A DNA stretch of 64,000 nt, taken from NCBI RefSeq assembly GCF_003382275.1, contig NZ_QTJX01000002.1:372001-436000 (forward strand). The letters are read 5' to 3'. Shown here in pieces: positions 22,826-27,226 of this stretch (position 1 is the stretch's first letter; each line of letters opens with the position of its first letter). The stretch comes from Flagellimonas nanhaiensis (GTDB lineage: Bacteria > Bacteroidota > Bacteroidia > Flavobacteriales > Flavobacteriaceae). Position numbers and translations under genes: made by a program. The notes under the pieces are model-generated. The model had not been told where the DNA came from and made no database searches. It saw nothing but the letters and a program-made list of their open reading frames with translations.

Positions 22826-22855
22826 AAAAAGGCGCTCAAATGAGCGCCTTTTTTT
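22826..22855 (+). terminator. Terminator after the M16 pair
   Basis: Stem AAAAAGGCGCTCA, 2-nt loop, TGAGCGCCTTTTT with seven T. A longer start for the next gene (ATG 22840) would fall inside it and is rejected for that reason. Confidence 0.88.
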
Positions 22856-22905: not shown

Positions 22906-23652
22906 ATGACTAAAAGAGAATTTATACAGTTCAATAGAAAATGGCACCGCTATCTGGGTGCCATTTTAGGAATACAGTTTTTTCTATGGACCATTGGAGG
23001 GCTCTATTTCAGCTGGACGAACATTGATGAAATTCGAGGAGACCATCTCAAGAAAAAACACATTTTACCTTCTTTGAACGACACTCTGGTCTCCCCTTCC
23101 CAGTTTCTTCTGAAAGAAAATATTCCTAAAGACAGTATTTTGACATTGGAGCTAACCTCCATTCTTAATGATCCCATATATAGGATTGTTTACAACTCTG
23201 GAGGAGAAAGAAAGGTAGTGCTTACCCATGCCCTTACCGGAGAATTAAAAAAGCCTTTATCTGAAAATGAAGCTGTACAAATGGCCAAAGAAGGTTTGGC
23301 TGTGGATGCCCCTCTAACAGAAGTGACCTATTTAACAGAAAGTGGCAAGCACCACGAATATAGAGGAAGGCCGTTACCTGCCTATGCTATTACTTTTGGG
23401 GAACCTGCCAACACTACGGTCTATGTTTCTCCAGAATATGGGAGCATACAAACGTTTAGGAGTAACAAGTGGCGCGCTTTTGATTTTTTATGGATGTTGC
23501 ACACCATGGATTATGAAGGACGCGACAATTTTAACAACTTGTTGTTGAGGGCATTTGCCGTATTTGGTCTTTTCACCATTCTCTCTGGATTTACCCTTTT
23601 TGTTTTGACATCTAAACGATTTTCCAGAAAAAAACACAAATTCAGAAAATAG
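22906..23652 (+). CDS. PepSY-domain membrane protein
   Basis: 248 residues from ATG 22906. An N-terminal helix (HRYLGAILGIQFFLWTIGGLYFSW), a periplasmic PepSY-type region (residues 60-170) and a C-terminal helix (RAFAVFGLFTILSGFTLFVLT) give two membrane spans. The segment FDFLWMLHTMDYEGRDNFNNLL is the hallmark of PepSY-associated membrane proteins near metal receptors. Relatives help move electrons or metal across the inner membrane. It is followed 37 bp later by the secreted HMA protein and faces the copper-receptor genes. Confidence 0.85.
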   Translation: MTKREFIQFNRKWHRYLGAILGIQFFLWTIGGLYFSWTNIDEIRGDHLKKKHILPSLNDTLVSPSQFLLKENIPKDSILTLELTSILNDPIYRIVYNSGGERKVVLTHALTGELKKPLSENEAVQMAKEGLAVDAPLTEVTYLTESGKHHEYRGRPLPAYAITFGEPANTTVYVSPEYGSIQTFRSNKWRAFDFLWMLHTMDYEGRDNFNNLLLRAFAVFGLFTILSGFTLFVLTSKRFSRKKHKFRK

Positions 23653-23689
23653 AACAGGTAAATTGCAGTTATGTAATAAAATAAGATCC

Positions 23690-24046
23690 ATGAAAATCAA
23701 ACTCCTTTCCTGCTTGTTGTTTTTATTCTTGTCTGTTCATTTTGTTGGTGCACAAACCACAAAAGAACAAAGCTCTTCAAAAGAAATTCCATCAGTGAGC
23801 CTTGCCAAAATAACCATTGATGGTATGGCGTGCCAAGAAGGTTGCGCAGATACCATTCAGCTAAATCTTAGCAAGATAAAAGGTGTCCACAAGGCGACAG
23901 TGAGTTTTGAGACGGGAATGGCCATGGTAGAATTTGACCCTAAAATGGTCTCAGAGGAAGAAATCCAAAAGACCATAACCGACACTCGAGTGAAGGATTA
24001 TGTTTACTCTATAAAGGATATTGTTATCCTGGAAAATCCGATGTAG
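23690..24046 (+). CDS. Secreted heavy-metal-associated (HMA) domain protein
   Basis: 118 residues from ATG 23690 with signal peptide MKIKLLSCLLFLFLSVHFVGAQ. The ferredoxin-like HMA domain contains GMACQEGCADTI, the CxxxC variant of the metal loop found in Bacteroidota exported HMA proteins (the classic form is CxxC). It then shows the family's VHKATVSFETGMAMVEFDP strand. It should bind copper or a similar ion in the periplasm. It is co-directional with the PepSY gene and convergent with the copper receptor. Confidence 0.9.
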   Translation: MKIKLLSCLLFLFLSVHFVGAQTTKEQSSSKEIPSVSLAKITIDGMACQEGCADTIQLNLSKIKGVHKATVSFETGMAMVEFDPKMVSEEEIQKTITDTRVKDYVYSIKDIVILENPM

Positions 24047-24052
24047 AAAAAA

Positions 24053-24079
24053 GGGCAGATAATCTAAAATCACCTGCCC
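24053..24079 (-). terminator. Terminator after the OprC-like receptor
   Basis: GGGCAG / CTGCCC arms with an inner GAT/ATC extension, followed on the minus strand by six T. It ends the receptor transcript 17 bp past its stop. Confidence 0.65.
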
Positions 24080-24095
24080 CAATCGTCAAGAACAA

Positions 24096-26207
24096 CTAAA
24101 AACTATATTGTACAAATGCTGAAAAGCTTCGGCCGGGATCGTTTATTGGAACCCTTCCGAAATCAGCTTGGTTTACAAAAGAAAAATTCATGTGGTTGTT
24201 GTAGGTCTTGTCAAAAATGTTCATGGCAGCTACACCGAGTGTAAAATGCTTGAACGGTTTTGCTCCAAATCTAAAATCCAGAAGACCGTAGCCATCAGTA
24301 ACCTGCTCCCCAAAGGAGGATGCAATGTCTGATTGCTCCGAGGTAAGGGTATAGGTGGCCCTAGCCCATAGTTTTTCCCGCTCGTATCCAAAATTGAATC
24401 GAGTGACCAATGGAGGCGTCAAAGGCAAGGCCTCATCCAAATCTTTATTTTTTGTGTATACATAGGCTAGTTCAGTCTTTAGGTTGAAATCTTCCAAAAA
24501 TTTGATTTCCCCAAATACTTCAAAGCCTGTTTTATATGCCTCGTCCACATTGGTGAATCTTTTTACCTCTTGAGGAGGGGCCATGGGCATATATTTCTTT
24601 TGAATCGACTCATCAATCAAGGGAGCAATGTAGTTGTCATAGAAAGAATAATATGCTGATGCTCCATAATCCACTCGGTCAATAAACGAATCCGAGAAAA
24701 TCTTTTTGGCCTTTACTCCCAATTCAAATTGGTTGTTGACCTCGGCATCCAAAAACGGGTTACCTACATGTTCGTATGGGTCTTGCCCTACATTGAAGTG
24801 GTTTATGAACCGTTCAATCATATTGGCAGAACGCACTCCTCTACCATAGGCAAATTCAAACAAAACATCTGGAGATGCCATAAACTTCATGGAGGCCGTT
24901 GCACTTATATTGTTTTCTGTTCTACTTCCCACTTCGGGATATAGCGCCACAAAATCGTCCGCAGGAGCGTTGATGTCTGAACGGACCATATCATATCGCA
25001 TGCCCATGTTGAGCAACCATTTTTCCGCAAGCGGATATTTTCCTTCCACAAAAACACCAAAATCATCAATTCTGGAATCTTGCCATACATCGTCCACAAA
25101 TTCCATTGGCATTGGTAGCGGGTCTCCGTTCATATTAAGCTTCATCGATCTTACTCTTTGACCTTCCCTTCCAACGGAAAAGGCATCCACTCCCGTGAAA
25201 AGTTTAAAGTTCTCTTTAGGTCTCCACTCTAGCTCTACCCGGCCTCCTATAGTAGTGGCATCAACGGTGGAAACAGCATCCACGCGCATAAAACTTGGGC
25301 GGTCTGTATTGGACATAATATGATCAACCTGAGAAAAATAGGTTTTGGCGCTTATTTGTCTAAGGACTCCGTTTGCGTTTTCCCATTTATAATCCAAAGA
25401 AGCTACTGTACTGTTGTCTTCATCTGTATCCATGGGAAGACCGGCATGTAGCACATCCCTACCGTAGGATTGTCTAAACTCAGCAAGAAAACGTTGCTTT
25501 TCATTTGGGTTGAACCCTACTTGAATACCATAGTCGGTACTCTTGAAAGATGAAGGTATTTCATTACCGTCTCCATCTTCATAATTTCCAAAATCGCGAT
25601 AGCCAACATTAAGATTTACATCAAAATCTTCGTGTACATATTTAACATTGGCCAAGGTGGTAATTGAGTTTCCATTGGTTTCATCACCAAAGTTTACTTT
25701 TCCATGGTACCCTTTTTCTCCTTTGTCGGTTTCGTGGGTAACCAAATTGACCACCCCGCCAAAGGTGGCTCCATACCTAAAGGTATACGGCCCTTTGACC
25801 ACTTCTATCCTTTCTATTTCTTCGGGAATGACATGAGTAGTAATTGGGTCCATTCTGTTGGGACAGGCATGCATAACCTTGGTCCCTCCATTGAACTGAA
25901 CGTTCAATTGTTCATACTGAGAGGCGCGAAAGGAAGGGTCTATGGCATAGTTGCCTCGTTTGATCAATGCAAAACCATTGATGTCCTTAAAAAGGTCCGC
26001 AACATTCTTGGGTTGGACAATTTTCTTGGAGTGTTCGCTTTCCACCATTGAGAAAACGGGGTCAGATTTTTGTTCTCCCTCAACCACCACTTCGCTCAGC
26101 TTAACGGTTTTTTGCATTAGGGAGTCTTGCGCAGTTTCAACCTGCGCGTAGGACACTGCGGTCCCAAAAAACAAAACCATAAGTTTTGTTATCGTAATAT
26201 TTTTCAT
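24096..26207 (-). CDS. TonB-dependent copper receptor (OprC/NosA-like)
   Basis: 703 residues. The signal peptide ends SYAQ (residue 22), followed by a plug (residues 35-155) and a beta-barrel ending in Phe (FVQYSF). The plug carries ACPNRMDPITTH. Cys115 and Met119 form CxxxM, and His296 and Met298 form HxM in VDHIMSN. In OprC of Pseudomonas these two motifs bind copper, and the spacing between them is almost the same here. It should therefore import copper, possibly Cu(I), across the outer membrane. Upstream in the same orientation is a CxGKC small protein, joined by a structured 64-bp spacer. Confidence 0.92.
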   Translation of the reverse strand: MKNITITKLMVLFFGTAVSYAQVETAQDSLMQKTVKLSEVVVEGEQKSDPVFSMVESEHSKKIVQPKNVADLFKDINGFALIKRGNYAIDPSFRASQYEQLNVQFNGGTKVMHACPNRMDPITTHVIPEEIERIEVVKGPYTFRYGATFGGVVNLVTHETDKGEKGYHGKVNFGDETNGNSITTLANVKYVHEDFDVNLNVGYRDFGNYEDGDGNEIPSSFKSTDYGIQVGFNPNEKQRFLAEFRQSYGRDVLHAGLPMDTDEDNSTVASLDYKWENANGVLRQISAKTYFSQVDHIMSNTDRPSFMRVDAVSTVDATTIGGRVELEWRPKENFKLFTGVDAFSVGREGQRVRSMKLNMNGDPLPMPMEFVDDVWQDSRIDDFGVFVEGKYPLAEKWLLNMGMRYDMVRSDINAPADDFVALYPEVGSRTENNISATASMKFMASPDVLFEFAYGRGVRSANMIERFINHFNVGQDPYEHVGNPFLDAEVNNQFELGVKAKKIFSDSFIDRVDYGASAYYSFYDNYIAPLIDESIQKKYMPMAPPQEVKRFTNVDEAYKTGFEVFGEIKFLEDFNLKTELAYVYTKNKDLDEALPLTPPLVTRFNFGYEREKLWARATYTLTSEQSDIASSFGEQVTDGYGLLDFRFGAKPFKHFTLGVAAMNIFDKTYNNHMNFSFVNQADFGRVPINDPGRSFSAFVQYSF

Positions 26208-26213
26208 TTTGAT

Positions 26214-26280
26214 ATTGTTTAAGGTTATACCGATACGGTCTACGGTCTAAAAACCGATTTGTATGTAAGCCTTAAACAAT
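26214..26280 (-). promoter_or_regulatory. Structured spacer with long-range inverted repeat
   Basis: ATTGTTTAAGG at 26214-26224 and its perfect complement CCTTAAACAAT at 26270-26280 enclose 45 nt that hold a second small hairpin (CGGT / ACCG) and a GACCGTA tandem repeat. In the RNA this forms a closed multibranch element covering the stop codon of the upstream CxGKC gene and ending six bases before the receptor ATG. It could control receptor translation or mRNA processing. Confidence 0.5.
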
Positions 26281-26673
26281 AGGGGGTTTGTACGAAGAAG
26301 AAATATAATTGAAGGAATAATTGTTGGTATATTGATAATATACTTGCTGCGCTTCTTTTGAATCTGAAAACGAATACTTGGGAGCATCCATGTAAAAGAC
26401 AAGTATCTGCTCCCAACCTATGGCCGGCATAGGAAGTTCATTTTCATCACTCTGGGCCGTTAGCATTTGGGAAAGCATACATTTACCATCACAATTAAGT
26501 TCTGGTCTATCCCTATTTTCACAAAGCCTTTCTATAAATCCTTCCTGATCTATGCTATAATACACATACATGGAAGAAAAGCGAAGATTGCTCATCATAA
26601 TCAGGACTATGAAAAGTGATGAAAAAATCAGTGCTTTGTGGTCTGTCTTCAACACGGGTTGATATTGAATCAC
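26272..26673 (-). CDS. CxGKC small membrane protein of the copper locus
   Basis: 133 residues, no named family that I can recall. One N-terminal helix (residues 14-29) is followed by an outside region with ERLCENRDRPELNCDGKCMLSQML. The three cysteines in CxNxxxPxxxCxGKC are the notable feature, and the C-terminus is Tyr/Ser/Pro-rich. The CxGKC pattern recurs in Bacteroidota beside metal receptors and may bind the ion. It is upstream of the OprC-like receptor on the same strand and likely co-transcribed. Start: the N-terminal Met at 26673 puts the helix near the N-terminus, as for an uncleaved signal anchor. Confidence 0.7.
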   Translation of the reverse strand: MIQYQPVLKTDHKALIFSSLFIVLIMMSNLRFSSMYVYYSIDQEGFIERLCENRDRPELNCDGKCMLSQMLTAQSDENELPMPAIGWEQILVFYMDAPKYSFSDSKEAQQVYYQYTNNYSFNYISSSYKPPIV

Positions 26674-26800
26674 AAAATTAGTGATTCCACGACCTCAAAA
26701 GCTGACAATTGTCAGCTAATGGACAAATTGGGCGGTTATCTATCAAAATATGGTAATCATTACATCCCAATGTCTAAATTTGCTTTCAATAATCCATATC

Positions 26801-27226
26801 ATGAAAAAATATATTCCCTTAGCGCTCTCCGTATTGTTTTTGACAATAGCTTCCTGCAAACAGGAAAAAAAAGATGATTCTCCAACCCAAATGGAACAGG
26901 TAATGGCCGTCCATGACGAGGTAATGCCCAAAATGGGAAAACTGGGTAAGCTGGTTGGTCAACTTAAAAGCAAGGTGGATACCACAGAAATTGGCAAGAA
27001 ATATGAGGCAGCTATGATAGATCTTCAGGATGCCAATACTTCCATGATGGATTGGATGAGAAACTTTGGTGATCGTTTTGATTCTGATGAGATCTTGAAC
27101 GGCAAAGAACTCTCTGAACAAAAACAGCAATGGCTAAATGAAGAAGAGGAAAAAGTCAAAGCTCTTAAGGAACAGATCAATTCCAGTATAGAGCGCGCTG
27201 AAAAATTATTGGCCGAGGAGGAGTAA
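26801..27226 (+). CDS. Met-rich helical lipoprotein
   Basis: 141 residues from ATG 26801 (MKKYIPLALSVLFLTIASCKQEKK, lipobox Cys19). The mature part is almost all helix, with clustered methionines: MEQVMAVHDEVMPKMGKL and SMMDWMRNFGDRF. It ends in a Glu/Lys coiled coil. Methionine plus histidine spacing of this sort is typical of copper-binding periplasmic proteins, and the gene is divergent from the copper-receptor operon. No named family is recognised; a copper-binding role is inference. Confidence 0.75.
   Translation: MKKYIPLALSVLFLTIASCKQEKKDDSPTQMEQVMAVHDEVMPKMGKLGKLVGQLKSKVDTTEIGKKYEAAMIDLQDANTSMMDWMRNFGDRFDSDEILNGKELSEQKQQWLNEEEEKVKALKEQINSSIERAEKLLAEEE

Follow-up and report, generated by a model that had tools for sequence, protein, structure and literature searches.

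A candidate copper-responsive leader peptide upstream of an OprC-type receptor gene in Flagellimonas nanhaiensis

The 64,000-nucleotide (nt) stretch of Flagellimonas nanhaiensis DNA analysed here (contig NZ_QTJX01000002.1, positions 372,001 to 436,000; hereafter the window) contains a small open reading frame (ORF), named here the CxGKC leader after its cysteine motif, which is followed on the same strand by the gene of an OprC-type TonB-dependent receptor. On balance, the two seem to form a unit in which arrest of the ribosome at a Pro-Pro pair near the leader C terminus would open the receptor start, and in which copper would turn the receptor off. The leader (26272..26673, minus strand; 133 residues from a GTG start) comprises a membrane segment, a cysteine motif, a variable linker and a KPPIV-stop terminus, and a junction of 64 nt separates it from the receptor gene (24096..26207, minus strand; 703 residues). 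It is the motif, its spacing from the Pro-Pro pair and a predicted RNA helix, and these only, that suggest copper-controlled arrest at the Pro motif, a reading made from sequence.

Conserved features of the CxGKC leader

The leader motif, C-x-N-x7-C-x-G-K-C, follows an N-terminal membrane segment recognized by hydropathy. Its three cysteines (C51, C61 and C65; 26479..26523, minus strand) are the proposed copper-sensing site. In alignment A4 (34 of 82 leaders plus that of the window), C51, N53, C61, G63, K64 and C65 are invariant across all 35 sequences; in the broader alignment A1 (48 of 85 members), the only invariant residues are C46, N48, C56, C60, P125 and P126. An in-frame TTG at 26652 provides an alternative start, which would be favoured by a TAnnTTTG sequence at 26680-26673 that overlaps the GTG start and may represent a -7-like box of Bacteroidota.

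The C-terminal Pro-Pro pair was found in every member of three sets of leaders (85/85, 82/82 and 42/42), that is in 207 distinct sequences among 209 members, two leaders being present in two copies (L044 = L221 and L051 = L230). By comparison, a Pro-Pro pair occurs within the last 12 residues of 36 of 1298 background ORFs. The search query for the first set included the Pro-Pro end, though several of its matches covered the N-terminal part only; this set was drawn from a fetched subset of 103 leader places listed, and 4 of 89 profile matches were dropped on inspection as spurious ORFs. In the window the pair is encoded by CCC CCT (26281..26286, minus strand), two sense codons before the stop, and constitutes the proposed arrest site. 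Two to five residues follow the pair in 81 of the 85 first-set members, and the residue preceding it is H in 36, K in 15, R in 11, Q in 9, P in 9, E in 4 and Y in 1.

The linker between the last cysteine and the Pro-Pro pair keeps its length while varying in sequence: 63-71 residues in the first set (mean 67.0, standard deviation 2.35), 62-66 in the second (mean 64.3, standard deviation 0.84) and 62-71 in 41 of the 42 members of the phylum-wide set, for which 40 stretches were taken from matches outside the family Flavobacteriaceae. The leader family corresponds to no Pfam or NCBIfam model: at E 0.1, each matches 2 of 48 CxGKC members at most. CxGKC matches occur in 77 of 149 genomes of the family and in 152 of 395 genomes sampled across the phylum. 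The next gene, called like all others as the longest ORF, is codirectional in 85/85, 80/81 and 41/41 cases of the three sets, against 545 of 751 in the background.

The nature of that gene varies. Clustering by BLAST of the genes downstream of the 85 first-set leaders gives 43 TonB receptors, 20 MbnP proteins, 10 outer-membrane proteins of 340 residues, 6 YtkA-like lipoproteins, 4 members of the lipoprotein family found in the window, 1 cydA and 1 further CxGKC ORF. In a Pfam spot check of one or two members of most classes, MbnP and cydA were clear; one of two TonB-class proteins matched Plug while the other matched no TonB model, and only one of two YtkA-like proteins scored above the cut-off.

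These features bear on the role that the initial annotation had given to the CxGKC protein, as one step of a copper route through the envelope. As a membrane-anchored periplasmic chaperone taking copper from the receptor, with a structural role for the Pro-Pro pair, it would account for the conserved cysteine cluster after the membrane segment and for the constant pairing with a copper-type receptor. Such a function is nevertheless unlikely: the stretch of 60-70 residues between cysteines and Pro-Pro keeps its length rather than its sequence, the downstream gene varies, and neither the invariant near-terminal Pro-Pro nor the helix at the stop codon is given a role. Nor does the AlphaFold2 (AF2) model of the leader, built on a shallow alignment of 35 sequences, contain a confident fold in the linker; it consists of one confident (membrane) helix with no confident fold elsewhere (predicted template modelling score 0.36). 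The sequence features of the CxGKC protein fit a regulatory leader peptide better than a carrier or chaperone.

Several loci present variations on this arrangement. At L107 (3857-7504) cydAB and a lipoprotein of the window type directly follow a CxGKC leader, an arrangement that suggests, from gene content, a copper-free oxidase under a leader of this kind. Six loci (L077, L098, L100, L111, L159 and L222) contain two CxGKC leaders each, and at L179 and L183 an ORF of 282 residues lies between leader and receptor. At L042-L068 and L171-L231, the leader-receptor pair often stands back to back with ORFs sized like respiratory genes; the examples of these divergent genes that were tested against Pfam are cytochrome bd subunit I, and a cytochrome c together with a COX1-family (NorB-like) protein. 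Outside the family, some of the proteins encoded downstream of the leaders at L237, L243, L255, L259 and L261 are short and contain EDPICHMKT, and others resemble outer-membrane proteins and have CD(V/S/I)CG near the N terminus; judging by these motifs, they possibly represent further metal-handling families.

A predicted RNA helix between the leader stop and the receptor start

The messenger RNA of the junction is predicted to form a 12-bp helix between nucleotides 26281-26270 and 26224-26213 (minus strand; z -3.39, 1 of 200 shuffles as stable). The 5′ arm (26270..26281) holds the leader stop codon (26274-26272) and the 3′ arm (26213..26224), the proposed mask of translation initiation, stops 5 nt short of the receptor AUG (26207-26205); a predicted inner hairpin (26233..26258, minus strand) is enclosed by this outer helix. 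In alignment A5 (the window and 18 of the 20 close relatives, all except L159 and L164), 94.7% of the cells of the whole structure are paired, and its covariation reaches 0.280, against 0.139 in shuffled alignments (0 of 500 reach the observed value) and at most 0.063 in slid ones. Five of the six consensus pairs of the inner hairpin have changed on both sides. The outer helix on its own gives 0.153, against 0.105 shuffled (0 of 500) and at most 0.066 slid.

Pairing between the leader stop codon and the next start region was then compared across sets of junctions with gaps of 40-130 nt (30-130 nt for the phylum-wide set). The named loci used for this purpose are the best 80 of 530, obtained in a scan that started from leaders linked to receptors, for which reason receptor adjacency is not an independent observation among them. 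Pairing probability is 0.929 in the close relatives and the window (21 junctions; 0.091 shuffled, p 9.5e-7), 0.537 in the other named loci (56 junctions; p 6.9e-7) and 0.606 in further loci with other downstream genes (36 junctions; p 3.1e-7); across the four junction sets, including the further OprC loci considered below, shuffle values lie between 0.09 and 0.18. The 27 phylum-wide junctions give 0.462 against 0.191 (p 0.0025), and control gene pairs (150 of 258) 0.126 against 0.132. These p values are indicative only because the sequences are related. In a stricter control, each leader end was joined to the junctions of other loci, and a clear excess was retained in the close relatives (0.929 versus 0.366) and in the further loci with other downstream genes (0.606 versus 0.350). 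The predicted stop-to-start helix is thus strong in the close relatives and uneven elsewhere; a predicted RNA structure over the initiation region of the next gene, as in the mechanism of CutF, the leader of Rhodobacter capsulatus compared below, is present in the close relatives.

The helix takes in the start codon itself in some loci, for example L210 and L230. At the junctions of L182, L192 and L223 the first ATG called may not be the receptor start; a second one lies, by eye, within sequence seemingly complementary to the leader stop region. Stability of the intergenic RNA taken alone was rejected as evidence, since 37 control junctions were equally low (mean z -2.44 versus -1.92); this first measure did not cover the stop codon, so that the greater part of the helix escaped it.

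A helix running from stop codon to start region might instead serve translational coupling without metal sensing, tying receptor translation to any ribosome that finishes the leader. This explanation, which we regard as improbable and slightly more so than the chaperone function, leaves the invariant cysteines, the Pro-Pro pair and their near-fixed spacing unexplained.

The receptor is an OprC homologue

Among proteins of solved structure, OprC is the best relative of the receptor by sequence (phmmer E 5.6e-52), and OprC chains occupy ranks 1-27 of a Foldseek search, at about 22% identity in the alignment. Counted along the phmmer alignment, residues C115, M119, H296 and M298 correspond to OprC positions 143, 147, 323 and 325, its four copper ligands (PMC8610252). 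All four are invariant across the 32 receptors of alignment A3 (31 of 62 plus the window), and all 62 receptors examined have CxxxM, in the form CPNxM in 61 and CTNRM in one. The initial annotation had proposed an OprC-type ligand set for this receptor, which the alignment, the invariance and the fold bear out; the recurrence of CxxxM and HxM is a matter of conservation and not of chance. In the AF2 model the plug region has a predicted local distance difference test score of about 25-45, too low to place the four ligands relative to each other. That the receptor is an OprC homologue, and by kinship a probable copper importer, is well supported by these comparisons; it would accordingly be expected to transport copper.

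The best NCBIfam model for the receptor is TIGR01778 (OprC/NosA), at 242.9 bits and thus below its equivalog cut-off of 472.45, and heme-receptor models also match, at 170.3 bits. Both scores would suit import of another metal or of a metallophore, the CxGKC cluster then answering to iron. Against this stand the conservation of all four OprC ligand positions and the rank of OprC as best solved relative by both sequence and fold, and import of another substrate appears rather remote.

Of the 149 family genomes searched, 28 contain the receptor at E at most 1e-60, that of the window among them, and in 28 of the 28 corresponding loci the CxGKC ORF lies directly upstream on the same strand.

Proposed mechanism

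In the mechanism proposed for the two-gene unit, the leader protein would be inserted into the membrane during its synthesis and the ribosome would pause at the C-terminal Pro-Pro. The footprint of the paused ribosome would extend over the final codons of the leader, stop codon included, and would block the helix with the receptor start region, leaving the receptor to be translated. Copper would bind the three-cysteine motif, which at that stage would be separated from the peptidyl-transferase centre by about 60-70 residues and would probably have passed the membrane; binding would release the pause, the ribosome would leave, the helix would close and receptor synthesis would stop. Arrest of the ribosome, copper as the ligand, and release rather than strengthening of the arrest by copper are each presumed in this scheme.

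The edge of a ribosome footprint lies 16 nt onward. If the Pro-Pro codons (26286-26281) occupy the P and A sites, that edge falls at 26270, the end of the 5′ arm, and on average 62% of the paired 5′-arm bases lie under such a footprint in the 91 of 132 junctions that have a helix and a Pro-Pro pair within the last seven codons. With the 5′ arm under the footprint, arrest would therefore keep the helix open. In CruR, the copper-responsive leader of Bordetella pertussis, toeprinting suggested that these sites hold the Pro-Pro codons (PMC12992588). About 30 residues span the ribosomal tunnel and 17 the membrane (PMC9973294); by analogy, a cysteine motif 62-71 residues out would be in the periplasm, whereas that of CutF, at 45, would be in the vestibule.

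The sign of the response could be the opposite one. CutF also has a CxxxC motif, a Pro-rich C terminus and a stem-loop shielding the next Shine-Dalgarno site, and there copper prolongs stalling (PMC9973294); if the CxGKC leader behaved likewise, copper would strengthen arrest and the receptor would be made when copper is present. This seems rather improbable, as CxGKC leaders stand before genes of importer-type receptors and MbnP and, in one case, before cydA. The sign of CruR, in which copper releases the leader (PMC9426467), is favoured because the downstream genes fit copper shortage.

Several points weigh against copper-released arrest in a leader-receptor unit. As CutF has the opposite sign, the assignment of copper to the off state depends on downstream gene content. 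Most leaders carry H/K/R/Q/P-Pro-Pro where CruR has RAPP, for which arrest was demonstrated, and a bare Pro-Pro pair may be too weak for arrest; the three cysteines could bind another metal or sense redox state, and one member (L260) has a cysteine to Pro-Pro spacing of 36. As to the helix, the covariation in A5 comes mostly from the inner hairpin; 2 of the 9 outer-helix pairs have changed on both sides, no more than in shuffles (303 of 500 reach this number), and 3 never vary. Overall, junctions between ordinary genes are more stably folded than their shuffles as well (the 37 controls mentioned above). In the further OprC loci (19 junctions) pairing probability is 0.417, short of a difference from shuffles (p 0.067), and the excess is absent under the stricter control (0.417 versus 0.381, p 0.27); in the other named loci that excess is modest (0.537 versus 0.397, p 0.006). 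Finally, arrest, copper sensing and its sign are all read from sequence.

Comparison with known systems

The class to which the leader would belong, exported peptides with a cysteine motif, a C-terminal Pro-Pro and an RNA structure over the next start, is already known from CutF and CruR. CruR (bp2923) is likewise an exported upstream ORF with a cysteine motif and a C-terminal Pro-Pro, forms the first gene before a TonB receptor and turns that receptor off in copper (PMC9426467); its arrest has been demonstrated (PMC12992588). It differs by its CXXC motif, RAPP terminus, 45 residues between the two, Rho-dependent termination, a 162-nt intergenic region and membership of DUF2946, whereas the leaders described here have CxGKC, mostly (H/K/R)PP, 62-71 residues, a predicted helix over the next start (with a 64-nt junction in the window) and no DUF2946 match. 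Membership of DUF2946 (PF11162) was rejected for the leader, this family being absent among those matched by 48 leaders at E 0.1. PF11162 was found in 0 of 149 genomes of the family, and the CxGKC profile has no similarity to the one DUF2946 protein compared. Across the phylum, DUF2946 matches occur in 11 of 395 Bacteroidota genomes, 5 of them over the cut-off (L232-L236), and by eye lie apart from the CxGKC matches in genomes with both.

CutF resembles the CxGKC leader as an exported peptide with CxxxC, a Pro-rich C terminus and a stem-loop shielding the next ribosome-binding site, and differs in the sign of its response, its 45-residue spacing and its target, a multicopper oxidase (PMC9973294). 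CutF-like proteins have been defined as shorter than 150 residues, with an export signal, Pro-Pro within 15 residues of the C terminus and a codirectional next gene within 1000 nt (PMC9973294). The window leader falls within this class by rule, with its 133 residues, a membrane segment by hydropathy, Pro-Pro two residues from the end and a codirectional receptor 64 nt on. Bacteroidota contribute 19% of list D of CutF-like proteins by count and 40% after normalization (PMC9973294), and these very possibly include CxGKC members; the available part of that paper reports no test of a Bacteroidota member.

The receptor shares with OprC/NosA (TIGR01778) the CxxxM and HxM ligands at aligned positions, and is distinguished from it by the low identity and sub-threshold score given above and by a different upstream leader family. 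A flavobacterial OprC-like receptor with CxxxM-HxM, G2EC70 of Bizionia argentinensis, was proposed for copper uptake (PMC11213822), and because it has the same motif this part of the present finding is not new; an upstream leader goes unmentioned in the available part of that paper, and Bizionia lies outside the 80 named loci compared. The CrtA-CrpH pair of B. pertussis also couples a copper receptor with a PepSY_TM neighbour (PMC12914433, PMC13038864). CrtA, however, is without conserved Cys and Met, and the PepSY protein of the window is shorter, belongs to another transcription unit and is rarely near the receptor.

Neighbouring genes and locus layout

In the ORF list of the window, the leader and receptor stand with three other genes between two M16 peptidase genes and gldD: a short PepSY_TM membrane protein of 248 residues with two transmembrane-like segments (22906..23652, plus strand; PF03929, E 9e-8), an exported MerP/CopZ-like HMA protein with C-x3-C (23690..24046, plus strand; PF00403, E 6e-11) and, divergent from the leader, a Met-rich lipoprotein with a VHDEVMPKMG motif that matches no Pfam family (26801..27226, plus strand). 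All five ORFs, including the CDGKC of the leader, are at or near the places given by the initial annotation and have the characters it described. By strand and spacing they look like three transcription units: PepSY-HMA (plus), leader-receptor (minus) and lipoprotein (plus). PepSY-HMA looks like a separate unit because a terminator-like hairpin with a T-run, recognized by eye (22831..22855, plus strand), follows the M16 peptidase gene and precedes PepSY. Between 26100 and 26850, sigma-70-like promoters show no excess (3 found, 3.0 expected), and one terminator-like site was found, outside the leader-receptor junction and on the opposite strand.

The five genes had been taken together as one copper route from the outer to the cytoplasmic membrane, and the same set was looked for in other Flavobacteriaceae. 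A conserved five-gene route was rejected as a unit, partner presence being inconsistent across receptor loci, and the full set is not kept together. At the 27 other receptor loci of the family no homologue of PepSY, HMA or the lipoprotein was detected by tblastn with the window proteins at E 1e-3, a search that would miss distant PepSY or HMA proteins. The nearest named relatives by locus similarity are Flagellimonas and Muricauda. When the window is counted among the close relatives, all 21 loci contain the lipoprotein, 2 contain PepSY and 1 contains HMA; for the 20 named loci of Flagellimonas/Muricauda type (L152-L170, L186) the tblastn counts are 20/20, 1/20 (L159) and 0/20. No homologue of the HMA protein was detected at the same threshold across 47 other receptor loci. 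What is kept in the 20 named close relatives is the order M16-receptor-CxGKC-gldD.

Six other genomes have, at this chromosomal site, a CxGKC ORF that heads or adjoins combinations of the 340-residue outer-membrane protein, a TonB receptor, the lipoprotein family, PepSY and cydAB, and in 4 loci a relative of the window-type lipoprotein is encoded immediately after a CxGKC leader. A copper link for PepSY and the lipoprotein is reasonable because relatives of both occur in CxGKC-headed clusters elsewhere; from this gene context they plausibly belong to copper-linked clusters, though not to a fixed route.

Discussion

Copper sensing and acquisition in Bacteroidota seem to be little described in the literature found. 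No study of a Bacteroidota member of this leader class, or of a helix at its stop codon, was found in a literature search that did not extend to bioRxiv, supplementary material or the majority of subscription papers. A 2025 survey of RAPP/RGPP leaders places Bacteroidota among the groups lacking copper-related ones and finds a TonB-related class throughout Gram-negatives (PMC12992588).

Taken across the phylum, the data raise the possibility, put forward here tentatively, that Bacteroidota own a broadly distributed lineage of nascent-chain copper sensors without detectable DUF2946 similarity. In this lineage the cysteine site would lie further out than in CutF and CruR, periplasmic copper would be read during the wait at (H/K/R)PP, and the leader stop codon would be part of the RNA lock; one type of sensor would govern the genes of copper receptors, of MbnP and of further outer-membrane proteins and, in one case or more, those of the copper-free cytochrome bd oxidase. 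The F. nanhaiensis locus would be a compact two-gene case of such control, and one with a precise prediction as to which codons arrest the ribosome and which bases pair, copper being expected to switch the receptor off.

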